From positions 62,001 to 126,000 of the forward strand of contig NZ_CP133188.1 in the NCBI RefSeq assembly GCF_030913635.1: DNA of 64,000 nt, read 5' to 3'. Positions 20,158 through 48,162 of the stretch are shown piece after piece (the stretch's first letter is position 1; the number at the start of each line of letters is the position of its first letter). The DNA is from Sedimentibacter sp. MB35-C1. Lineage in GTDB: Bacteria; Bacillota; Clostridia; Tissierellales; Sedimentibacteraceae. The translations under genes and the position numbers were made by a program. A model generated the notes under the pieces. It was not told where the DNA came from. It made no database searches and saw only the letters and a list, made by a program, of their open reading frames with translations.

Positions 20158-20180
20158 AAGTAATAATTAAATAATCGGCT

Positions 20181-20398
20181 ATGAAAAAGAGAGTAGGTAT
20201 ATAAAGCTTTTTAGAGAGCAGAACCCCGTGCTGCAAGTTCTGCAAGCAATGTATATCGAAGGTAGCTTTTGAGCTTTTAACTTGAAATAGCAGTAGAGTT
20301 AAACGGATTCACCGTTACAGTATCAAGTGCCTATATGGAATTAAGGTGGTATCGCGGGTTTTTTCGTCCTTTGTTATGAAAACGCCTGCTTTTTTTAT
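20181..20398 (+). promoter_or_regulatory. T-box riboswitch, probable Ile specifier, upstream of ilvBN
   Basis: The conserved T-box sequence AAGGTGGTATCGCGG is at 20343-20357, followed by TTTTTTCGTCCTT that can pair with AAGG as the terminator, then a T-run before ilvB. Stem I shows the AGTA motif (GAGAGTAGG) on the 5' side and the AGAGAGC element. The specifier is read as ATC (Ile) at 20255-20257 because it is followed by GAAG and, 12 nt later, TGAGC; the Phe T-box in this window has exactly the same spacing. Uncharged tRNA-Ile would stabilise the antiterminator and switch on acetolactate synthase. Confidence 0.9.
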
Positions 20399-20443
20399 AC
20401 CTATATTTTTTATACCGAATTTATGACGAAAGGAAGTGTTTGC

Positions 20444-22096
20444 ATGAAAATTAAAGCAGCAGAAGCAATTGTAAAATGTTTTGAAATAGAAAACACAGAT
20501 GTTATTTTTGGATATCCGGGTGGCGCAGTCCTTCCGCTTTATGAAGCCCTGAGAAATTCAAATATAAAACATGTGCTAGTACGCCAGGAGCAGTCTGCGG
20601 CTCACATGGCAAGCGGATATGGACGAGCTTTGAACAAAACCGGCGTATGTATTGCAACATCAGGCCCCGGAGCAACTAATTTAATAACCGGCATAGCAAC
20701 AGCGTACATGGATTCTATACCTCTTGTAGTTATTACAGGGCAGGTCAGTTCAAACAGCATAGGCAGAGACATGTTTCAGGAAGCTGATATAATAGGGGCA
20801 ACTGAATCTTTTACAAAAAACAGCTACCTGGTGAAAGATGCAAATGAGCTCCCCAGAGTTATAAAAGAAGCCTTTTATATAGCATCTACAGGAAGGAAAG
20901 GTCCGGTACTCATTGATATTCCAAGGGATGTTCAGGAAAAAACAATAGATTTCATATATCCTCAAGAGATAAATATACGTGGATATAAACCTACATTTAT
21001 CGGTAATCCTAGGCAGGTCAAAAGAGCTGCGGATATGATAAATAAATCTCATAAACCTGTAATATGCATAGGTGGAGGCGTAAGGTCAGGAAACGCTATG
21101 GAGGAACTGGAATTATTCGTTGAAAAATGCAAAATACCTGTTGTTTGCTCCCTCATGGGAATCGATTCTTTTGATAATGACAGTCCGTATTTTGCCGGGC
21201 TCATAGGCTCACACGGATACCCTTTTGCAAACAAAATGATAAATGAATCTGATCTGCTTATTGTTATCGGAGCGCGTTTTGCTGACCGCACTACTTTTAT
21301 GATGGAAAAAAGCAACCACAGGCAAAATATAATACATATTGATATTGACCCTGCGGAAATAGGCAAAAATTTTGAAACACGAATTCCTGTAGTTGGAGAC
21401 GCAAAAGAAACTCTCAACAGCCTCCTGGAATACAGCTACAAATTAGATACCGCAGACTGGCTGAAGGATGTACAGACAAGGCGTAAAAATTATCTTAAAA
21501 AACTTTTTGCTAAAAAAGCATCTCTGAACCCAAAACTTCTTATAAACAAAATATCAAGTTTCATGGAAAATGGAAGCATATGGGTTGCAGATGTAGGGGT
21601 TAACCAAATATGGGCCGCGCACAGCTTTATAGCAGGCAAAAACAAAAAATTCCTAACTTCCGGAGGTTTGGGAACAATGGGATACAGTCTTCCCTCTTCA
21701 ATAGGTGCAAAGCTGGCAGCTCCCAGGAAAAAAGTTGTAGCTTCAATGGGAGACGGCGGATTTCAAATGCTTATGAGCGATCTTGCAACTGCAAAAGAAT
21801 ATAGTGCGGGCGTAAAATTTATTATATTTAACAACAAGAAGCTGGGGATGGTAAGAGAGCTGCAAAAAAACGCATACAACGAGAACTCTTTTTTTGGAAT
21901 TGACCTTGGCTTTAATCCAAATTTTATGAAACTAGCGGATGCTTATGGAATCAAAGGAATGAAAATAGCAGACGACAGCGAAGCAGATCATGCAATACAG
22001 GAAATATTTAAAGATAATGAACCATTTATTTTAGAATGTATAGTTGATCCTGACATACCTTCAGTTCCGCACATGGGAGGCGAAAACTATGAATAA
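20444..22096 (+). CDS. ilvB: Acetolactate synthase large subunit
   Basis: 550 residues from ATG 20444 (MKIKAAEAIVKCFEIENTDV), preceded by AAAGGAAG; the ATG at 20423 would place that site inside the gene. It carries the TPP enzyme features: GYPGGAVLPLYEAL, the catalytic Glu in RQEQSAAHMASGYGRA, a central FAD-binding-type domain, and the C-terminal TPP motif GDGGFQM followed by FNN. It condenses pyruvate with pyruvate or 2-ketobutyrate as the first common step of Val, Leu and Ile synthesis. It overlaps ilvN by 8 nt and is regulated by the T-box upstream. Confidence 0.96.
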   Translation: MKIKAAEAIVKCFEIENTDVIFGYPGGAVLPLYEALRNSNIKHVLVRQEQSAAHMASGYGRALNKTGVCIATSGPGATNLITGIATAYMDSIPLVVITGQVSSNSIGRDMFQEADIIGATESFTKNSYLVKDANELPRVIKEAFYIASTGRKGPVLIDIPRDVQEKTIDFIYPQEINIRGYKPTFIGNPRQVKRAADMINKSHKPVICIGGGVRSGNAMEELELFVEKCKIPVVCSLMGIDSFDNDSPYFAGLIGSHGYPFANKMINESDLLIVIGARFADRTTFMMEKSNHRQNIIHIDIDPAEIGKNFETRIPVVGDAKETLNSLLEYSYKLDTADWLKDVQTRRKNYLKKLFAKKASLNPKLLINKISSFMENGSIWVADVGVNQIWAAHSFIAGKNKKFLTSGGLGTMGYSLPSSIGAKLAAPRKKVVASMGDGGFQMLMSDLATAKEYSAGVKFIIFNNKKLGMVRELQKNAYNENSFFGIDLGFNPNFMKLADAYGIKGMKIADDSEADHAIQEIFKDNEPFILECIVDPDIPSVPHMGGENYE

Positions 22097-39448: not shown

Positions 39449-39751
39449 AACTCAATAATAAAACTGCTATGACAGAAGAAAGTAAATTTGAAGAAGCTAC
39501 CAGGGAGTATTCGCCATTGACTGCAAGCGAATATTAGAATAATCATTTTGAAGTTCCTTCTTGAGCACTCGGCTGAATTAAGTAAGCTTGAGCGTACTTC
39601 CTGCGTTACAAGGATAGAATATCGGATTATAATCTCGTATTCGAAAAAAGAGCGGCATATGCCGAATTTGGGTGGTACCACGGAACAGTTGAATTTTAAC
39701 CTTTCGTCCCTATATTGTTAACAATATGGAGGCGGAAGGTTTTTTATTTTA
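39449..39751 (+). promoter_or_regulatory. T-box riboswitch, Phe specifier, upstream of pheA
   Basis: The T-box sequence GGGTGGTACCACGG is at 39670-39683. A terminator follows: AACCTTTCGTCC pairs with GGCGGAAGGTT around an ATATTGTTAACAATAT element, then TTTTTTATTTT; TTCGTCCC is shared with the antiterminator. Stem I has the AGTA motif (AAAGTAAA) 5' of it. The specifier is read as TTT (Phe) at 39547-39549, followed by GAAG and TGAGC 12 nt on, the same layout as the ilvB T-box. The gene downstream makes phenylpyruvate, which fits tRNA-Phe sensing. Confidence 0.92.
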
Positions 39752-39770: not shown

Positions 39771-40856
39771 ATGACACAATATAGTAATTTAGTTGCTGAA
39801 ATGAATAAATATGATGATTTAATGAAAGATATATTTGAAAAGCGAATGTCTTTATTAGATCAAATTGTTTCAGCAGAAAGCAGCGTCTCAGACAAAATAA
39901 CTTCCGTCAAAAATAATGAAACCAACAATAAATACTCTATTGAATATAATTATTTTCTTGACAACTTATTGTCTTTGGACAGCAATTACAGATATAAAAG
40001 AAGCAGACATAATAATAAATGCTCTGTTAATTATACTACTGATCCAATTGAAATTGATAATGTCTGCTATCAGGGCCTGCCTTTTTCATATTCAGAAGGA
40101 GCGGCAAAAAATCTGTTTAAAAATAAAAATTACATTAATAAATCAACATTTGAGGATGTATTTAAAGATGTTCACAACGGAAATGCTGAAGCTGGAATCG
40201 TACCTGTGGAAAACTCAACTGCGGGTTACGTTACTGACGTTTATGATCTGCTATTGAGATATGATTTATATGTAAATTATAATTACATCAGAAAGGTGGA
40301 TCACTGCATTGCAGGAACCATGGACTCCTGCATTAATGACATAGAAGTTGTGTATTCACATCCTCAGGCAATCATGCAATGCAAGGATTATATAAACTTA
40401 CGCGGGTTTAAGGCAATAAATGAAACAAACACGGCAGTTGCGGCTCAAAAAATATATTTAATGAACAGCAAAAGTGCTGCATGTATTTGTTCGCCTGAAG
40501 CAGCTGAAAACTATGGTCTAAAAATCCTTGAGAATAATATTAATTCAAAACATAATTACACCAGGTTCGGGGCAATATCAAAATACCTGATTGCTGACGA
40601 AAGCCATAATAGAATCAGCATAGTATTTACGGTACCTCATGAAATAGGAACACTTGATAAAGCTCTGGCTCTGTTTTCCTACTACAACATAAATTTATCA
40701 TATATTTACTCTAGGCCTGATTTGGGAAGTCCTTGGAAATACTTGTTTTATTTGGATTTCGAGGGAAATATCTTAGACAAAAGAATACAAACTATTCTTT
40801 GTCAGCTTGAACAAAAACTCCCATTTTTTAAAATTCTGGGTAGCTTTAAATACTAA
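39771..40856 (+). CDS. pheA: Prephenate dehydratase with degenerate chorismate-mutase-like N-terminus
   Basis: 361 residues, with GGAGGTAAGAT before the ATG. Residues ~90-270 are a prephenate dehydratase domain (QGLPFSYSEGAA, GIVPVENSTAGYV, and the catalytic TRF in YTRFGAIS). Residues ~280-361 are an ACT domain (RISIVFTVPHEIGTLDKALALF, YSRPDLGSPWKYLFYLDF) for Phe feedback. The first ~85 residues look like an AroQ-type helix bundle (KRMSLLDQIVSAE) but lack the usual catalytic Lys and Arg positions, so mutase activity is doubtful; a separate AroQ is encoded in the next operon. It converts prephenate to phenylpyruvate and is controlled by the Phe T-box. Confidence 0.92.
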   Translation: MTQYSNLVAEMNKYDDLMKDIFEKRMSLLDQIVSAESSVSDKITSVKNNETNNKYSIEYNYFLDNLLSLDSNYRYKRSRHNNKCSVNYTTDPIEIDNVCYQGLPFSYSEGAAKNLFKNKNYINKSTFEDVFKDVHNGNAEAGIVPVENSTAGYVTDVYDLLLRYDLYVNYNYIRKVDHCIAGTMDSCINDIEVVYSHPQAIMQCKDYINLRGFKAINETNTAVAAQKIYLMNSKSAACICSPEAAENYGLKILENNINSKHNYTRFGAISKYLIADESHNRISIVFTVPHEIGTLDKALALFSYYNINLSYIYSRPDLGSPWKYLFYLDFEGNILDKRIQTILCQLEQKLPFFKILGSFKY

Positions 40857-40908: not shown

Positions 40909-40936
40909 TTGACAAGTTCAAATTATGTGTTAGAAT
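40909..40936 (+). promoter_or_regulatory. Promoter of the tyrosine leader/aroF operon
   Basis: TTGACA, 16-nt spacer, TAGAAT with an extended TG (TGTTAGAAT), 34 nt before the leader-peptide ATG. It shows that the aroF operon is transcribed independently of pheA. Confidence 0.75.
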
Positions 40937-40969
40937 AGCTTAAACGATATTTGAAGGAGAAAATTTATA

Positions 40970-41107
40970 ATGGAATTTATAAATAACTTTTATGCAACTA
41001 ATTTATATAGCCGTTATCAGAGTAATTATTACTATTATTATTACTTTTATTGTTATATAAAAAAACTGCATAAATATATTTATAAAGGATTAATGCCGGC
41101 ATTTTGA
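40970..41107 (+). CDS. Tyrosine-rich attenuator leader peptide (45 residues)
   Basis: ATG 40970 has GAAGGAGA nine nt upstream and the frame runs to TGA at 41105. Of 45 residues 13 are Tyr and 4 are Phe, including the run YYYYYYFYCY (41027-41056). The codons TAT AAA GGA that follow at 41081-41089 are the exact complement of TCCTTTATA (41179-41187), which forms the 5' arm and loop of the terminator before aroF. Ribosomes stalled at the Tyr run would leave this antiterminator strand free; ribosomes that read through would cover it. This is the classical trp/phe attenuator layout with Tyr as signal. The peptide itself needs no function. Coding is strongly supported; the mechanism is inferred. Confidence 0.87.
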   Translation: MEFINNFYATNLYSRYQSNYYYYYYFYCYIKKLHKYIYKGLMPAF

Positions 41108-41173
41108 TAAAAAATGCTTTGCCTGTTTTATCTCAGGTAATTTAAATTTTTCTCATCTTATAAGAAATTATTG

Positions 41174-41200
41174 GAGAGTCCTTTATAGGGCTCTTTTTAT
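41174..41200 (+). terminator. Attenuator terminator before aroF
   Basis: GAGAGTCCT pairs with AGGGCTCTT around TTAT (9 bp with G-U pairs), followed by TTTATTTATTT. Its 5' arm and loop (TCCTTTATA) can instead pair with TATAAAGGA at 41081-41089 inside the leader peptide gene. An isolated weaker hairpin is GCATTTT/AAAATGC at 41099-41117. Confidence 0.8.
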
Positions 41201-41236
41201 TTATTTAGGACAAAATACAAATCGGAGGACAGAAAA

Positions 41237-42250
41237 ATGATATTAATTATTAACAAACTTGCAACTGAAAAGGAAATTTCTTCAATAAAGGAGAAAATCT
41301 GCAGCATGGGCTGCCAACCACACGAGTCGATAGGAATGAATTACAGAATTATAGGTATTGTCGGAGACACCCATAACATTGACCAAAGCGTATTTCAAAA
41401 AAACAGAATTATCGATAACGTAATTCGCATACAGGAACCATACAAAAAAGCTAACCGATTATTTCACCCGGACAACACAGAAATAAAAGTAGGTAATGAA
41501 ACCATAGGCGGTAATAAATTGGCAATAATAGCCGGGCCATGCTCTGTTGAAAGTGAAGAACAAATTTTATCCATAGCAAAATCCGTAAAGGCATCTGGAG
41601 CAGGATTCTTAAGAGGAGGCGCTTTTAAGCCTAGGACTTCACCATACAGCTTCCAAGGACTGAAAAAACATGGGCTTGAACTTTTGAAATACGCCAAAAA
41701 AGAAACCGGCCTTCCTATTGTTTCAGAAATTATGTCAACAGAATTTCTTGATGACTTTGTAGAGGATGTTGACATCATTCAAGTCGGTGCCAGAAATATG
41801 CAAAACTTTGAGTTACTGAAAGAACTTGGAAAAATTAATAAACCTATTCTGCTGAAAAGAGGACTATCCTCAACCATAGAAGAACTTCTTATGTCTGCCG
41901 AATACATTTTAGCCGGTGGCAACGAAAATGTAATATTGTGTGAAAGAGGCATACGAACATTCGAAAAATACACAAGAAACACATTGGATCTAAGTGCAAT
42001 ACTTGCAATTAAAAAGCTTAGCCATTTACCTGTAATTGTAGATCCAAGCCATGCAACTGGCTTATGGTGGATGGTGGAAGCACTGTCAAAAGCAGCTGTT
42101 GCTGTAGGAGCCGACGGACTAATAATTGAGGTTCACAATGACCCTGAAAATGCATTGTGCGACGGAAGTCAGTCTGTTAAACCAAACAGATTTGATGATA
42201 TTATGAAAAAGTTAAAACTAATTGCTGAAATAGAAAACAAAGCTATATAA
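41237..42250 (+). CDS. aroF: 3-deoxy-7-phosphoheptulonate (DAHP) synthase, AroF type
   Basis: 337 residues, the size of the Thermotoga/Bacillus-like type I-beta enzyme. Residues 1-75 form a ferredoxin-like regulatory domain that in this family binds tyrosine, and the barrel follows with IIAGPCSVESEEQ, RGGAFKPRTSPYSFQG, VGARNMQNF, LLKRG and VDPSHATG. It condenses phosphoenolpyruvate and erythrose-4-phosphate, the first step of the shikimate pathway. GGAGGACAGAAAA precedes the ATG. It is the first gene of the operon behind the Tyr-rich leader, so tyrosine may act on both enzyme and transcription. Confidence 0.96.
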   Translation: MILIINKLATEKEISSIKEKICSMGCQPHESIGMNYRIIGIVGDTHNIDQSVFQKNRIIDNVIRIQEPYKKANRLFHPDNTEIKVGNETIGGNKLAIIAGPCSVESEEQILSIAKSVKASGAGFLRGGAFKPRTSPYSFQGLKKHGLELLKYAKKETGLPIVSEIMSTEFLDDFVEDVDIIQVGARNMQNFELLKELGKINKPILLKRGLSSTIEELLMSAEYILAGGNENVILCERGIRTFEKYTRNTLDLSAILAIKKLSHLPVIVDPSHATGLWWMVEALSKAAVAVGADGLIIEVHNDPENALCDGSQSVKPNRFDDIMKKLKLIAEIENKAI

Positions 42251-42270
42251 AGGTTAGAGAGGTGTTGAAA

Positions 42271-43128
42271 TTGAAATCCATGTCTGATTTAAATATAACC
42301 ATAGTTGGGATAGGCTTAATCGGAGGTTCTTATGCCAAAGCTATAAGAAAAAACATAAAAACCAACAAGTTATGGGCAATTGATATAAATGTAGATGCAT
42401 TGAATGAAGCTGAATCATCAGGCGTAATAGACAATGGATATACAGAACCGCAGTATCCTCTCGAGCATTCCGATCTGGTAATATTATGCACATATCCTAA
42501 TGCCACCATGGATTTTTTGAAAAACAACATGAGATCTTTTAAGAAAAATGCGCTTATTACAGATACTATGGGGATGAAAAACAAAATTGTTTCAGATATC
42601 TTAAGCATAATGAGGGATGACCTTGAATTTATAGGAGGGCATCCCATGTCAGGAAGGGAGTTAGTAGGTTACAACCATTCTGATGCCGATATTTTTAAAA
42701 ATGCACAATACATTCTGACCCCAAGCAAAAACACCTCGGACAGCTCTTTAATAATGTTAAAGCAAATAATAAAAAGCATAGGCTTTAATAAAATTATTGA
42801 AATGTCACCTCAAACACACGATGAAAAAATTGCATTCACCAGTCAGCTTCCTCATATTATAGCATGCACGTTAATGAACAATGCAAGTCTTGACAATAAT
42901 TTTCAATGCGTGGGCGGAAGCTTTAAGGATGCTACAAGAGTGGCAGACATTAATTCTCAGCTATGGAGTGAACTGATACTGGAGAATAAGGATAATATAT
43001 TAAATGAGATCAGTAATTTTATTTCAGACATAACTGACATCTATAATGTTATTAAGTGCAACGATAGAAACAGCCTGGAATTTTTCATGAACAAAAGCAG
43101 AGCAAGAAGAAAAGAGATGAATATATGA
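42271..43128 (+). CDS. tyrA: Prephenate dehydrogenase
   Basis: 285 residues from TTG 42271, the start best placed relative to the ribosome site AGAGAGGTG; a GTG at 42262 lies inside that site and an ATG at 42280 is too far. The N-terminal Rossmann motif is GIGLIGGSYAKAI, followed by HPMSGRE with the conserved His, the serine-containing DTMGMK and the dimerisation helix phrase FTSQLPHIIACTLM. It oxidises prephenate to 4-hydroxyphenylpyruvate with NAD+. No ACT domain is present, unlike pheA. It overlaps aroB by 4 nt (ATGA). Confidence 0.94.
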   Translation: MKSMSDLNITIVGIGLIGGSYAKAIRKNIKTNKLWAIDINVDALNEAESSGVIDNGYTEPQYPLEHSDLVILCTYPNATMDFLKNNMRSFKKNALITDTMGMKNKIVSDILSIMRDDLEFIGGHPMSGRELVGYNHSDADIFKNAQYILTPSKNTSDSSLIMLKQIIKSIGFNKIIEMSPQTHDEKIAFTSQLPHIIACTLMNNASLDNNFQCVGGSFKDATRVADINSQLWSELILENKDNILNEISNFISDITDIYNVIKCNDRNSLEFFMNKSRARRKEMNI

Positions 43129-44189
43129 CAGTACTAAATGTAACCCTTCAGACAAAAAAATATGATATAATGATGGAAAAAGGAATTATTAATAATATCG
43201 GGTTTGAAATAGAAAAACTATATGGCGGGAATAGAATTGCTGTTATTACAGATAAAAATGTATATTCATTGTATGGCGAGCTAGTAAAAAATTCATTAGA
43301 ACATTGCGGTTTTAATGCGAGCTTTATTATACTGGAGCCCGGCGAAAAAAGCAAATCCATGACAGTGCTCGAAAGTGTATATACCCGCTTGCTGGAATCA
43401 AAAATAACCAGAGGCGACATGATAATTGCTTTGGGAGGAGGAGTTGTAGGCGATTTAGGCGGATTTGCTGCATCAACCTATTTGAGAGGTGTAGACTATG
43501 TGCAAATTCCAACTTCCCTTTTAGCACAAATTGATTCTAGTATAGGCGGAAAGGTAGCTGTGAATCTGGAGCAGGGCAAGAATTTAGTCGGAAGCTTCTA
43601 CCATCCGAAAAAAGTTCTTATAGACCCCGAGGTACTTAATTCTCTTCCTGATAAATTTATCAAGGACGGCCTGGGAGAAGTAATAAAGTATGCGTGCATT
43701 AAAGATTCAGAGCTTTATGAATTATTGATGCGCATAAAATCTAAAGAAGAATTACTAAATAATATTGATACTATCATTTTCACATGCTGCAATATTAAAA
43801 GAGAAATAGTTGAACAAGATGAACGAGATACCGGGATACGAATGATATTAAATTTCGGCCACACATTAGGTCATGCTGTTGAAAAATACTATAATTACGA
43901 GACATACACTCACGGAGAAGCGGTGGCAGCAGGTATGTATTTTATAACACAGAAAAGCGAGGCTCTCGGATATACCGAACCGGGAACATCTGAAAAAGTA
44001 AAAAATCTGTTGACAAACTTCAGTATAGATTACAGTTTCCCCAACATTGACATGAATTATATAGAGGAAACAATTCTTTTAGATAAAAAAAATATTTCAG
44101 AGAATATAAACTTAATTTTATTGAAAAAAATAGGTGAAGCTTATATAGCGCAAATGCCTGTTAAAAATATAAACAACTTCCTAAAGTAA
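43125..44189 (+). CDS. aroB: 3-dehydroquinate synthase
   Basis: 354 residues, typical length. The NAD+-binding and catalytic regions read LGGGVVGDLGGFAASTYLRG, PTSLLAQIDSSIGGKVAVN, KNLVGSFYHPKKVLID, and the metal ligands GLGEVIKYA, NFGHTLGHAVE and HGEAVAAGM. It converts DAHP to 3-dehydroquinate. It overlaps tyrA and precedes aroA by 20 nt. The order tyrA-aroB-aroA-aroC is within one uninterrupted operon. aroD (3-dehydroquinate dehydratase) is the one pathway step not found in this window. Confidence 0.96.
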   Translation: MTVLNVTLQTKKYDIMMEKGIINNIGFEIEKLYGGNRIAVITDKNVYSLYGELVKNSLEHCGFNASFIILEPGEKSKSMTVLESVYTRLLESKITRGDMIIALGGGVVGDLGGFAASTYLRGVDYVQIPTSLLAQIDSSIGGKVAVNLEQGKNLVGSFYHPKKVLIDPEVLNSLPDKFIKDGLGEVIKYACIKDSELYELLMRIKSKEELLNNIDTIIFTCCNIKREIVEQDERDTGIRMILNFGHTLGHAVEKYYNYETYTHGEAVAAGMYFITQKSEALGYTEPGTSEKVKNLLTNFSIDYSFPNIDMNYIEETILLDKKNISENINLILLKKIGEAYIAQMPVKNINNFLK

Positions 44190-44209
44190 ATCTGAGCAGG
44201 AGAATACAA

Positions 44210-45481
44210 ATGAACAGCATAACGATAAAACCTTCTAAACTTAAAGGAGAAATAAAAGCACCTCCATCAAAAAGCTTAAGCCACAGAGCAATAATATGCG
44301 CTTCTTTATGCAGCAGTGGCGAAAGTTTAATAGACAATGTTGTTTTATCAGAGGATATAAAGGCTACCATAGAAGGCATGAGAAGTCTCGGTGCAAAAAT
44401 AAACTTATTTGAGAACAGCAACGGTACATACAGCTTGCGTATAAAAAGGGAAACCGATAAAATACAAACGACTCATATTGACTGCAGAGAATCAGGCTCA
44501 ACTTTAAGATTTATGATTCCCCTTGGCTCAATATTGTCAGAAGAATGCACTTTTACAGGCTCCGGCAAGCTTGTTGAGAGGCCTTTAGATGTTTATTATA
44601 AAATATTTGACGAACAAAAAATCAAATATAAAACAACTGGCGGTTTACTCCCCTTGTCTGTGCATGGTTCACTAATAAGCGGCAGCTACAAGGTTTCAGG
44701 CAATATCAGTTCACAGTTTATATCGGGACTTCTGCTTGCTCTTCCATTGCTGAGCGGTGATTCAACGGTTAAAATTAAAGGCCCACTGGAATCAAAGGGC
44801 TACGTTGATTTAACACTTGATATATTAAGCAATTTCAAAATTAATATTGTGAACAATGGCTATAAGGAGTTTAAAATTCATGGGAATTCCGTGTATGAGC
44901 CTGCAAACTATACAGTTGAAGGAGACCTGTCGCAAGCTGCTTTTTTCCTTGTAGCTCATGAAATCGGAAATGATTTGATATGTAACGGATTTGACAGCAG
45001 CACAAAACAGGGAGACAAGGAAATACTAAACATAATAGAAAAATACAAGCACATAGAAATAAGCAGCAATGAAGAAATCATAATTGACGCATCTCAAATA
45101 CCGGATTTAGTTCCGATTTTAGCAGTGCTTGCATCGCTGAAAAACGGAATAACAACGAAAATAATTAATGCGGAGCGCCTAAGAATAAAGGAATCAGATC
45201 GCTTAAGGGCAATCTCTACCGAGATGAATAAGCTTGGAGCAAGTATAAGGGAATTGCCAGACGGACTATTAATAAAAGGATTAAACAGTTTAGCAGGAGG
45301 TGCCGCAGTAAACAGCTGGAATGATCACAGAATTGCAATGTCCCTTGCAATAGCGGCAACAAAATGTGAAAAAGAAATTATATTGGAAAATCATACAGCT
45401 GTAAATAAATCATACCCTTCATTCTGGGATGATTATAAAGCTTTGGGAGGTATGTCAGATGAGTTCGATGTTCGGCAATAA
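44210..45481 (+). CDS. aroA: 3-phosphoshikimate 1-carboxyvinyltransferase (EPSP synthase)
   Basis: 423 residues. Signature segments are APPSKSLSHRAIICASLC (phosphate binding), ESGSTLRFMIPLG, the Ser-Gln of NISSQFISGLLLALPLL, VEGDLSQAAFFLVA and AERLRIKESDRLRAI, and HRIAMSLAIAA near the end. It adds enolpyruvate from PEP to shikimate-3-phosphate and is the target of glyphosate. The loop at residue ~95 reads SGSTLR, whereas most plant and enterobacterial enzymes have GTAMRP, so a class II-like, possibly tolerant form cannot be excluded. It overlaps aroC by 23 nt. Confidence 0.95.
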   Translation: MNSITIKPSKLKGEIKAPPSKSLSHRAIICASLCSSGESLIDNVVLSEDIKATIEGMRSLGAKINLFENSNGTYSLRIKRETDKIQTTHIDCRESGSTLRFMIPLGSILSEECTFTGSGKLVERPLDVYYKIFDEQKIKYKTTGGLLPLSVHGSLISGSYKVSGNISSQFISGLLLALPLLSGDSTVKIKGPLESKGYVDLTLDILSNFKINIVNNGYKEFKIHGNSVYEPANYTVEGDLSQAAFFLVAHEIGNDLICNGFDSSTKQGDKEILNIIEKYKHIEISSNEEIIIDASQIPDLVPILAVLASLKNGITTKIINAERLRIKESDRLRAISTEMNKLGASIRELPDGLLIKGLNSLAGGAAVNSWNDHRIAMSLAIAATKCEKEIILENHTAVNKSYPSFWDDYKALGGMSDEFDVRQ

Positions 45482-46559
45482 ATTAAAAATAAGTATTTTC
45501 GGTGAATCTCACGGCGAAGCCATAGGCGTGGTTATAGACGGACTTCCGCCTGGAATCAGGTTGAATCACGACTATATTAAAAAACAGATGCTGCGCAGAG
45601 CACCCGGAAGAAGCAGCCTTTCCACTCTAAGAAACGAAAAAGATTTATACCATATTGTAAGCGGCTATTTTGAAGATAAAACAACAGGCTCTCCATTATG
45701 CGCAATTATATACAATGAAGACAAGAAATCAAAGGATTATGATATTTTAAAGGATACCATGAGACCCGGTCACAGTGATTATCCCGGGTTTGTAAGATAT
45801 GCCGGATGCAGCGATTATCGAGGCGGCGGCCATTTCTCCGGTAGAATAACTGCACCTTTGGCATTTGCCGGTGCAGCTGCAATGCAAATACTTGAGGAAC
45901 ATAAAAATATTTTTATCGGCAGCCGTATAAAAAGCATATGCAAGATTAAGGATGATGATATTTCTGAAATAGAAACCAATACTCTTAAAGACTTGCGCAA
46001 CATGAATTTTCCCGTTATTTCTGATGAAAAATCAGCACTGATGCAGGCAGAGATACTTAAAGCAAAAGATGAAGGTGACTCTGTGGGAGGCGTAGCAGAA
46101 ACATTTATAATTAATACTGATGCAGGCCTTGGTCAGCCCTTCTTTGATTCAGTAGAAAGCAAGCTGTCACATATGATATTTTCCATACCGGCCGTCAAAG
46201 GAATAGAATTCGGAGCCGGTTTTGATATAACCAGTATGAAAGGCTCAGAAGCAAATGATTCATACTGTATGAAGGAAAACAAAATTATTACCGAAAGTAA
46301 TAATAACGGCGGGATAACAGGAGGAATTACAAACGGTATGCCCATAGTGTTCAGAACAGCTATAAAGCCTACACCGTCTATAGCAGTTACCCAGAAGACC
46401 GTTAACGTTTCATCTATGAAAAACACTGAACTGACTATATCAGGACGTCACGATCCATGCATAGTACCAAGGGCACTGCCTGTTATTGAGGGTGCTGCAG
46501 CACTGGTGATACTCGACTTAATATTGGAAAGGGAAGGTGAAATATGGAACCAAAAATAG
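45459..46559 (+). CDS. aroC: Chorismate synthase
   Basis: 366 residues from ATG 45459, with GGGAGG at eight nt. The sequence has the family signatures FGESHGEAIGVVIDGLPPG, RRAPGRSSLSTLRNE, RPGHSDYPG, GGGHFSGRITA and GRHDPCIVPRALPV. It produces chorismate from EPSP by an FMNH2-dependent anti-1,4 elimination. Its start lies inside aroA and its end inside aroQ (16-nt overlap), a tight coupling. The FMN reductase partner is unknown here; the family is monofunctional in most bacteria. Confidence 0.96.
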   Translation: MSSMFGNKLKISIFGESHGEAIGVVIDGLPPGIRLNHDYIKKQMLRRAPGRSSLSTLRNEKDLYHIVSGYFEDKTTGSPLCAIIYNEDKKSKDYDILKDTMRPGHSDYPGFVRYAGCSDYRGGGHFSGRITAPLAFAGAAAMQILEEHKNIFIGSRIKSICKIKDDDISEIETNTLKDLRNMNFPVISDEKSALMQAEILKAKDEGDSVGGVAETFIINTDAGLGQPFFDSVESKLSHMIFSIPAVKGIEFGAGFDITSMKGSEANDSYCMKENKIITESNNNGGITGGITNGMPIVFRTAIKPTPSIAVTQKTVNVSSMKNTELTISGRHDPCIVPRALPVIEGAAALVILDLILEREGEIWNQK

Positions 46560-46828
46560 ATTTAAATAAAGTAAGAAATGAAATTAATTCAATAGATGCT
46601 GATTTAGTAAAACTTTTAGAAAAGAGATTTAATTTAGTGTTGAAGGTTGGAGAATATAAAGCAGCACACAATCTGCCGGTATTAGATGAAGCAAGAGAAA
46701 AAATTGTTATTGAAAAATGCAAGAATCATTTAGAAAACGAGAAGTACAAAACCTATATGGAAAAAGTTTTTACACAAATTATGAATACCTGCAAGGATAT
46801 TCAAAAAAATGAAATTAAAATATTGTAA
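46544..46828 (+). CDS. aroQ: Chorismate mutase, AroQ type
   Basis: 94 residues, a stand-alone AroQ helical bundle. It starts IDLNKVRNEINSIDADLVKLLEKRFNLVLKVGEYKAAHNLPVLDEAREKIVIEK, with the active-site residues expected for AroQ: Arg in VRNEI, Arg in EKRFNL, Lys in GEYK, Asp in LDEARE. It converts chorismate to prephenate for both pheA and tyrA. This suggests that the mutase activity missing from the pheA N-terminus is provided here. The start overlaps aroC and aroE follows after 14 nt. Confidence 0.94.
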   Translation: MEPKIDLNKVRNEINSIDADLVKLLEKRFNLVLKVGEYKAAHNLPVLDEAREKIVIEKCKNHLENEKYKTYMEKVFTQIMNTCKDIQKNEIKIL

Positions 46829-46842
46829 AGAGGGATCTGTTA

Positions 46843-47646
46843 ATGGAAAATTTATATGGCTTAATAGGCGAAAGGCTTGGACATACCTTCTCACCTCAAA
46901 TTCATAATAAAATAATGGAAGAAACTCATACAAGCGGTCATTACGGACTGTTTGAAGTAAAAAAAGAAAATTTACAATTTGTTGTTAACGGATTAAAGGC
47001 ACTTGGTTATAAAGGCGTAAACGTTACTATACCATATAAATTGGACATAATTAAATATCTTGACTTTCTCAGCCCAGAGGCTTCGAAAATCGGAGCCGTA
47101 AATGTAGTGAGCATAGATAAAAACGGTGCATCCACAGGATACAATACGGACTATTATGGGTTTGGAATGATGCTGGATCATGCAGGTGTGAAAATTGAAA
47201 ATGAAACAGCTGTTGTTCTGGGTACCGGCGGTGCATCAAAAGCAGTAACGCAGTATCTAAAGGACAGCGGTATAAAAGAATTAATTCTGGTATCCAGAAA
47301 TGCAAAATCGGCAAAAGAAAAATATCCGGATGATAAAATTATTACGTACAATGAATTAAATAAATTATACAGCTGTTCTATGGTAATCAACTGTACTCCC
47401 ATAGGCATGTTTCCAAAAACCGAGCAAAGTCCGCTTGATAAAGAGCTTTTGAACAAATTCAACACGGCTGTAGATTTAATTTACAATCCGCCAAACACTC
47501 TATTTCTAAAGGAAGCAAAAGAAAAGGGCTTAAAAGCAATAAACGGACTATACATGCTTGCCGCACAAGCTGTTAAATCACAAGAAATATGGAACAAATC
47601 AAAAATCGAAGCAAAAGTTATAGATAATATACTAGATATGTTTTAA
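46843..47646 (+). CDS. aroE: Shikimate dehydrogenase
   Basis: 267 residues. The shikimate-binding N-terminal domain has GERLGHTFSPQIHN and GVNVTIPYKLDIIKYLD (catalytic Lys in the usual NVTxPxK), and NTDYYGF follows; the NADP-binding fold has VVLGTGGASKAV and INCTPIGMFP. It reduces 3-dehydroshikimate to shikimate. RBS GAGGGATCTG. It sits between aroQ and aroK with gaps of 14 and 15 nt, so it belongs to the same transcript. Confidence 0.95.
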   Translation: MENLYGLIGERLGHTFSPQIHNKIMEETHTSGHYGLFEVKKENLQFVVNGLKALGYKGVNVTIPYKLDIIKYLDFLSPEASKIGAVNVVSIDKNGASTGYNTDYYGFGMMLDHAGVKIENETAVVLGTGGASKAVTQYLKDSGIKELILVSRNAKSAKEKYPDDKIITYNELNKLYSCSMVINCTPIGMFPKTEQSPLDKELLNKFNTAVDLIYNPPNTLFLKEAKEKGLKAINGLYMLAAQAVKSQEIWNKSKIEAKVIDNILDMF

Positions 47647-47661
47647 CAGGAGATTTATATT

Positions 47662-48162
47662 ATGAATAAAAACATAGTAATAATAGGAATGCCCGGAAGC
47701 GGCAAAAGCACCGTAGGTTATATGCTATCCCAAAAAATGAACATGGACTATATAGATATGGACAAATATATAGAGACAAATGAAAACAAAACCATCAAGG
47801 AAATGTTTCAAATAGGCGAAGAATATTTCAGAGATGTTGAAACAAAACACACTAAGGCATTGAGCAAATTAAATTTCCACGTAATAGCCACAGGCGGCGG
47901 AATTGTAAAAAGAAAAGAAAATATCAAAATGCTTAAAGAAAACTGCATCATGATATTTTTAAACAGGCCTCTGGACAACATAATTCGAGATATTGACACA
48001 AACATAAGACCGCTTCTGGCAGACGGAAAAAATAAATTATACCAGCTGTATAATGAAAGGTTTCCTTTATACAAGGAGTATTGTGATATTGAGGTAATAA
48101 ACGACCGTGAAGTTTCTCATGCCGTAGAGCAAATCACAAAGCTTGTAGCAAATGAAATCTAA
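47662..48162 (+). CDS. aroK: Shikimate kinase
   Basis: 166 residues. The P-loop is GMPGSGKSTVG, followed by MDYIDMDKYIE (shikimate-binding Asp), the conserved Arg in EYFRDVETK, the GGG of ATGGGIVKR and RPLL in the lid. It phosphorylates shikimate at the 3-OH. Last gene of the operon. No T-tailed terminator is visible directly after it on this strand; the hairpin at 48219-48253 may serve. Confidence 0.94.
   Translation: MNKNIVIIGMPGSGKSTVGYMLSQKMNMDYIDMDKYIETNENKTIKEMFQIGEEYFRDVETKHTKALSKLNFHVIATGGGIVKRKENIKMLKENCIMIFLNRPLDNIIRDIDTNIRPLLADGKNKLYQLYNERFPLYKEYCDIEVINDREVSHAVEQITKLVANEI

Follow-up and report, generated by a model that had tools for sequence, protein, structure and literature searches.

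In low-GC Gram-positive bacteria, the genes for aromatic amino acids are usually described as being under T-box or TRAP control. Against this background, the aroF operon of Sedimentibacter sp. MB35-C1 raises a question: what is the role of a short, tyrosine-rich open reading frame (ORF) that lies between pheA and aroF and is followed by a terminator? The window, as used here, is the whole 64,000-nucleotide stretch of DNA that was analysed and that contains the locus; comparison was extended to related genomes. The original prediction placed a promoter, a leader ORF and a terminator in front of an operon running from aroF to aroK, and all three were found at the predicted positions.

The leader region between pheA and aroF

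The locus is made up of the following features:

39771..40856, + strand: pheA, prephenate dehydratase domain (Pfam PDT, 2.7e-51), the upstream neighbour of the leader
40909..40936, + strand: promoter-like TTGACA-16-TAGAAT, with TG before the -10 element and 11 of 12 consensus bases
40970..41107, + strand: leader peptide ORF of 45 aa with 13 Tyr, AAGGAG ribosome site, ATG at 40970
41027..41056, + strand: control-codon run YYYYYYFYCY, from reading of the sequence and comparison of seven leaders
41081..41089, + strand: segment 2, TATAAAGGA (codons Y38 K39 G40), antiterminator 5' strand
41173..41196, + strand: intrinsic terminator hairpin (segments 3 and 4), 10 pairs followed by a T-rich tract
41179..41187, + strand: segment 3, TCCTTTATA, terminator 5' arm and loop, complement of segment 2
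41237..42250, + strand: aroF, DAHP synthase (NF006421, 3e-150, above cut-off)
42262..43128, + strand: tyrA, prephenate dehydrogenase (best NCBIfam match 5.9e-61, under the curated cut-off)
43125..48162, + strand: aroB, aroA, aroC, chorismate mutase, aroE and aroK (NCBIfam and Pfam matches)

Downstream of the leader the gene order is aroF-tyrA-aroB-aroA-aroC-chorismate mutase-aroE-aroK, with aroE identified by TIGR00507, which scored over its cut-off, whereas the other aroE models fell under theirs. With its near-consensus hexamers and the TG before the -10 element, the promoter-like site is a strong one, as described earlier. Promoter-like sequences, judged by eye, also occur 5' of the leader in relatives, where a start for the ORF is present too. 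The leader ORF has the predicted 45 residues and 13 Tyr codons. Its cluster had been described as ten aromatic codons and has to be corrected to nine (eight Tyr and one Phe) plus one Cys. At eight Tyr per 10 residues, the run is the densest among the 463 ORFs of at least 30 aa in the window, the next best having five; 30 dinucleotide shuffles of the whole 64-kb window also reached at most five. Segment 2 also contains or adjoins two Tyr codons, and a ribosome stalling at these would favour termination. None of six leader peptides had any match in NCBIfam at E 1, and three of the six had one weak sub-cut-off match each in Pfam, taken as chance. The leader had no match among plasmids by blastn, and no Rfam match was obtained at the window leader.

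T-boxes are among the usual sensors for such genes, and three of those in this genome are relevant here:

20172-20374: T-box before an acetolactate-synthase-like gene (20423-22096, three TPP-enzyme domains)
39460..39714, + strand: T-box leader before pheA (Rfam RF00230, scoring 96 bits where the cut-off is 93)
G000:C1:1188278-1188478 (L173): T-box before tyrS, with tyrS at 1188553

In the genome of the window (G000), 27 T-box matches were obtained, of which 24 exceed the Rfam cut-off. The T-box covariance model gave no match at the aroF leader, its only matches in the window being those before the acetolactate-synthase-like gene and pheA. When the specifier is read by position, as the three bases that follow GAA-N, the likely specifiers are UUC for pheA, UAC for tyrS and GUA for the acetolactate-synthase-like gene. 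With the likely UAC, Tyr-tRNA seems to be sensed in this genome by two means, a T-box at tyrS and a leader peptide at aroF.

Competing folds and the proposed switch

The perfect 9-nt complementarity between 41081-41089 and 41179-41187, the first of these lying 24 nt past the Tyr run, was confirmed. In the 801-nt region, three terminator-like sites were counted over the two strands, where 0.2 would be expected. When the RNA was folded, the antiterminator formed while segment 2 was free and the terminator once segment 2 was masked, as had been proposed. In these calculations a stalled ribosome was taken to cover everything upstream of 41073, and RNAs starting at this position and ending at 41188, 41192, 41196 or 41199 all had the antiterminator as their best fold. 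With the end at 41203 the two structures were nearly equal (antiterminator -29.5, terminator -29.6 kcal/mol), and at 41210 the terminator was better by 2.2 kcal/mol (-31.7 vs -29.5). Masking of 41073-41101 allowed the terminator to form at 41203. Since the longest fold prefers the terminator, antitermination would depend on timing; competing folds of this kind are what a kinetic switch should be expected to give, short of proof. In the RNA from 40940 to 41210 folded whole, the terminator is present and the ORF start pairs with the region of segment 2; this may be the protector pairing (segment 1 with segment 2) of a leader that no ribosome occupies. Two hairpins predicted between the segments may bring segments 2 and 3 together.

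The region combines four of the features by which leader-peptide attenuators are recognised: a short ORF with a start codon and ribosome site behind its own promoter, a run of codons for an amino acid that the operon makes (9-13 Tyr in all seven leaders of this type described below), an antiterminator pairing downstream of the control codons that involves the 5' arm of the terminator, and an intrinsic terminator ahead of the first structural gene. On the evidence of sequence and comparison, the aroF leader is conserved and very probably a ribosome-mediated transcription attenuator that reads charged tRNA-Tyr. In the proposed mechanism, RNA polymerase would start at the 40909 promoter and a ribosome would translate the leader. 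With ample Tyr-tRNA, the ribosome would pass the Tyr run and cover segment 2 at the time the terminator is made, so that segments 3 and 4 would pair and transcription would stop before aroF. During Tyr shortage, the ribosome would stall within 41027-41056 with its leading edge short of segment 2, 24 nt further on; segment 2 would then be free to pair with segment 3, the terminator would be blocked, and aroF, tyrA and the rest would be transcribed. The stalling-dependent switch between antiterminator and terminator had been part of the original prediction and gains support from the folds above and from the conservation of the run, the spacing and the terminator arm.

Related leaders in the genus and across Clostridia

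The same kind of leader was found upstream of aroF in four relatives (G015, G009, G019 and G003), which together with the window leader gave a profile of five rows, two of them with an identical peptide. Searched against 25 genomes of the genus, this profile gave six matches at E <1e-15, of which five are in the profile by construction and one, in G024, is new; none of the remaining matches was better than 0.005, and no further leader copy was found in the genus with this profile. Among 100 genomes drawn from the order, four matched (G000, G003, G024 and G469), the last of these belonging to another family. The Tyr-type leader is therefore present in seven genomes, six of the 25 searched in the genus and one outside its family.

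Each of the seven leaders contains 9-13 Tyr, 3-6 Phe and no Trp codons, with a Tyr-dominated run in all of them. The distance from the end of the run to segment 2 (the YKG codons) is 24 or 27 nt in all seven, and the terminator, matched as a text pattern, reads GAGTCC...CTC followed by T-rich DNA in each, with an arm beginning TCCTT. Segment 2 is TATAAAGGA in five genomes and TACAAAGGA and TATAAGGGA in the remaining two. Its pairing with segment 3 comprises nine Watson-Crick pairs out of nine in G000, G015, G024 and G469. In the other three it is reduced to a core of 5-6 pairs, or 7-8 of nine counting G-U: six Watson-Crick pairs and one G-U in G009, five and two in G019, and five and three in G003. 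The prediction had been staked on conservation of the Tyr run and the complement in relatives; the run, together with the spacing and the terminator arm, stood in all seven, and the complement stood in full in four and in reduced form in three. Because segment 2 is the same in five of the seven, the evidence among these leaders is one of conservation more than of compensation; partner-specific pairing comes from a separate, wider family. A whole-leader duplex test gave p values of 0.023 (G000), 0.030 (G015) and 0.033 (G024), against 0.14 (G009), 0.55 (G019) and 0.18 (G003).

Between the window leader and that of its nearest relative (G015), all four codon differences in the ORF are synonymous, which supports translation of the leader. 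Other pairs of leaders, excepting this one and the near-identical pair G019/G003, differ by 10-23 nonsynonymous and 4-9 synonymous codons, mostly outside the run and segment 2. Since most differences are nonsynonymous, the peptide as such appears only loosely held. In G024 (L110) the leader and terminator lie directly before tyrA, identified by sequence, and no close aroF was found in that genome, the best match being 6.8e-4.

Other copies of aroF are arranged differently. Among those with upstream DNA searched, L017, L034 and L035 have a T-box at gathering score, and L036 and L037 have leaders that are T-box-like by eye and below the cut-off. In two of the genomes with a Tyr-type leader, a second aroF, with such a T-box in front of it, precedes the Tyr-leader aroF by about 1.4-1.5 kb (L034 in G003:C39 and L035 in G019:C3). 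Both also have a third copy with no visible leader (L032, L033), giving three differently arranged DAHP synthase genes. Rfam searches at gathering score over 20 and 14 whole loci returned nothing at the leaders, the sole matches being the T-box in L017 and a group II intron fragment in L062.

More distant aroF loci led to a second type of leader. Four of them (L011, L012, L014 and L022) have aromatic leaders with W-G and S-A-G, and L021 has one without W. A pattern scan for the motif FYFSWGYFYFSAGYF in 84,980 species genomes gave 61 loci (L044-L104), 42 of which (L060, L087, L090 and L097 are examples) were accepted by eye as a short ORF with a start and an S-A-like continuation, and 19 were dropped. 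In the accepted set W-G is fixed by the scan pattern and S-A-G, which was not preset, is nearly constant. These 42 loci are not independent, as L012 (G011) and L014 (G032) apparently derive from the records L087 and L091, and L062 and L066 are near-identical. The next gene, called by eye from its N-terminal sequence, is aroF in 27, aroK in five, a sodium symporter in three, chorismate mutase in two and aroE in one; one more (L089) has an unassigned ORF and then aroF, and three have no readable gene. Checked against Pfam, seven of eight tested calls fit, and the ORF of L089 matched part of Iso_dh above the cut-off. The leader ORFs of this wide family may well be missing from annotations.

A profile built from 25 wide-family leaders gave 29 matches at or below 1e-9 and two weak ones, in 18 genomes, most of them already known; among the additions are L164, which precedes a DAHP synthase with no match to the ferredoxin-like domain, and L163, in which W-S replaces W-G. 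A strict DNA pattern matched none of 391 class genomes, a result that says nothing about absence, as an over-tight codon also excluded known members.

The wide family allowed the pairing of segments 2 and 3 to be compared across partners. A stricter finder located the terminator in 38 of the 42 loci (L052, L070, L080 and L101 were dropped), and these together with six Tyr-type leaders made up 44 leaders for a permutation test with fixed windows, the hand-found L011, L021 and L022 being left out. The mean energy of a leader's own duplex was -9.93 kcal/mol, against -7.37 kcal/mol for permuted partners, with none of 20,000 permutations as low; for 30 less redundant leaders the values were -10.33 and -7.72 kcal/mol, again with none of 20,000, ancestry being ignored in both cases. 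For one of these 30 leaders the own partner ranks first, and for 15 it is among the best five. Five leaders (L095, L082, L071, L085 and L055) showed no excess over their own shuffles (z above -1 or near 0), two of which, L095 and L082, have good pairing at +47 to +71, outside the test window. The best duplex site overlaps +64 to +100 in 29 of the 38 wide-family leaders, and in the Clostridium group a segment on codons N-E-F (AATGAGTTT), about 70-85 nt past the motif start, pairs with the terminator sequence AAGGCTCATT. When the entire leader region was tested against shuffles, p <=0.05 was reached in just 15 of 47 leaders, three of six for the Tyr type; position and partner permutation are better evidence of pairing than this test.

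Codon choice in the 42 wide-family leaders is nearly invariant: over two motif positions, 71 of 72 Ser codons are AGC; two Phe are each encoded by TTT in 42 of 42; the Gly codon that follows Trp is GGC or GGT in all 42; and GCT or GCC encodes Ala in 38 of 38. Such choice points to selection at the level of RNA. Within the ORF, a hairpin of CUGGGGCU with AGCGCURG is paired in 91.4% of cells and, once slid, in no more than 50.3%; it is unproven because neither two-sided change nor an excess over shuffles was found in the wide family. It might conceivably serve as a pause site. The +1 frame of wide-family leaders (L012:1148-1321, L011 and L014) encodes a hydrophobic peptide, for example FILAGATFILALVTFIIKK, across the motif, which is probably a by-product of the codons. 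At L062, L066 and L084 the gene after the aromatic leader encodes a sodium:solute symporter, with a Pfam SSF match at L062 and L084, which may be an importer of aromatic amino acids.

The Tyr-type leaders occupy the same place, follow the same plan and share KK after the run with the wide family. However, hhalign of the two leader types gave P 0.012 and a probability of 3.7%, the wide-family profile did not find the window leader, and W-G and S-A-G are absent from all seven Tyr-type leaders. A common origin of the two is possible. One genome of the window's genus, G011 (L012), has a Clostridium-like aromatic leader with aroF, which reflects either transfer or contamination of a metagenome-assembled genome, and G011 was therefore left out as evidence for the genus.

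The signal that is read and relation to known attenuators

The composition of the leaders bears on what the ribosome would respond to. Tyr and Phe might be sensed together, with the Phe codons before and in the run also stalling ribosomes: there are 3-6 of these in each leader and at least one within the run, Phe, Tyr and one Trp occur together in the wider Clostridial leaders, and the AroR peptide of C. glutamicum responds to Phe though it holds Phe-Tyr-Phe, according to a review (PMC11802643). Tyr nevertheless outnumbers Phe in all seven leaders (9-13 vs 3-6) and Trp is absent, and in G024 the leader adjoins tyrA; pheA has a T-box. Joint sensing is on these grounds unlikely. It is far less probable still that a nascent Tyr-rich peptide arrests the ribosome and senses free tyrosine rather than tRNA charging, in the way that the TnaC nascent peptide arrests the ribosome with tryptophan. 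Such arrest would account for the positions kept outside the run (S-N before it, KLH and IYKG after it) and for the nearly constant S-A-G of the wider family, but RNA pairing can explain much of this conservation (YKG is segment 2, and codon choice in the wide family is invariant), the N-terminal halves vary, and arrest by excess Tyr would need the opposite sign for a biosynthetic operon.

The Tyr run might, finally, be a drifting AT-rich simple repeat and the terminator a plain end of the pheA transcript, with no switch at all. The run does consist of TAT, TAC and TTT repeats, the DNA around it is AT-rich, and relatives differ in the length of the run by two to three codons. Shuffled sequence falls well short of the observed Tyr density, the stretch from pheA to the terminator contains a promoter-like site, the TAC/TTC exchanges by which G000 and G015 differ leave the residues unchanged, and segment 2, the spacing and the terminator arm are kept in seven genomes, all of which make this explanation scarcely credible. 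For an attenuator reading charged tRNA-Tyr, the targets aroF and tyrA fit control by tyrosine, while pheA has its own T-box.

The two leader types can tentatively be joined in one account, which is possible without being favoured. A Clostridial aromatic leader-peptide regulon would include aroF, a second kind of DAHP synthase, aroK, aroE, chorismate mutase and the sodium symporter, with a conserved peptide in which Phe and Tyr codons are mixed with a single one for Trp and whose control codons also form an RNA hairpin; in one lineage the leader would have become a Tyr-only sensor of aroF-tyrA, and a Phe T-box would have taken pheA. If this is true, the two branches are read separately, one by the ribosome and one by tRNA binding. 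A single genome with T-boxes at pheA and tyrS and an apparent Tyr-codon attenuator at aroF-tyrA offers a clean setting in which to ask why evolution picks one sensor of tRNA charging over another within one pathway. The wider family supplies many antiterminator/terminator pairs to compare and operons to annotate. The main value of the finding lies in this wider regulon and in the use of different sensors on the branches of one pathway.

Among known systems, T-boxes bind tRNA directly, without a leader ORF. T-box riboswitches (RF00230) place genes of the same pathway under tRNA-charging control, here before pheA and tyrS. The enterobacterial trpL and pheL attenuators, named in a review, have in common with the window leader a short ORF with control codons for the regulated amino acid, competition between antiterminator and terminator and a position before a biosynthetic operon. 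In contrast to these, the control residue here is Tyr, segment 2 lies inside the ORF and the host is rich in T-boxes. For the AroR-aroF attenuator of Corynebacterium glutamicum, the primary paper is reportedly that of Neshat in 2014. Two articles (PMC11802643, PMC4046766) report attenuation by aroR, a leader peptide that there too precedes aroF, with the differences that it carries Phe-Tyr-Phe and that the host belongs to the Actinobacteria; Tyr availability was without effect, according to the review (PMC11802643). A candidate uORF with terminator before aroF, the uORFC-13-1 motif, has been proposed in Acholeplasma (PMC8632094); compared by its published description alone, it names Phe codon(s), has 24 representatives and contains an extra base-paired substructure. 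Stav 2019 (PMC6429828) lists candidate Phe/Tyr uORFs at shikimate genes in genomes that include Clostridium novyi, similar in their Phe/Tyr codons and, in the passages available, given no mechanism; these may be part of the wide Clostridial family. A His leader peptide has been reported in bacilli (PMC2965389), and the available part of PMC2494555 contains nothing on aroF. Across titles, abstract openings and passages of the literature on the mechanism, the pathway, the taxa and Tyr-codon leaders, no account of a comparable Tyr-only attenuator was found, and peptide strings matched no paper.

The claim that such an attenuator is unusual in this position can accordingly be kept in part: it holds for a genome with many T-boxes, and it is weakened by the peptide attenuators before aroF reported or proposed elsewhere. 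Because attenuators before aroF are known or proposed, the window leader is best described as a Tyr-dedicated variant of a known mechanism; what is new is its dedication to Tyr, its host and its pairing with a T-box on the sister branch.
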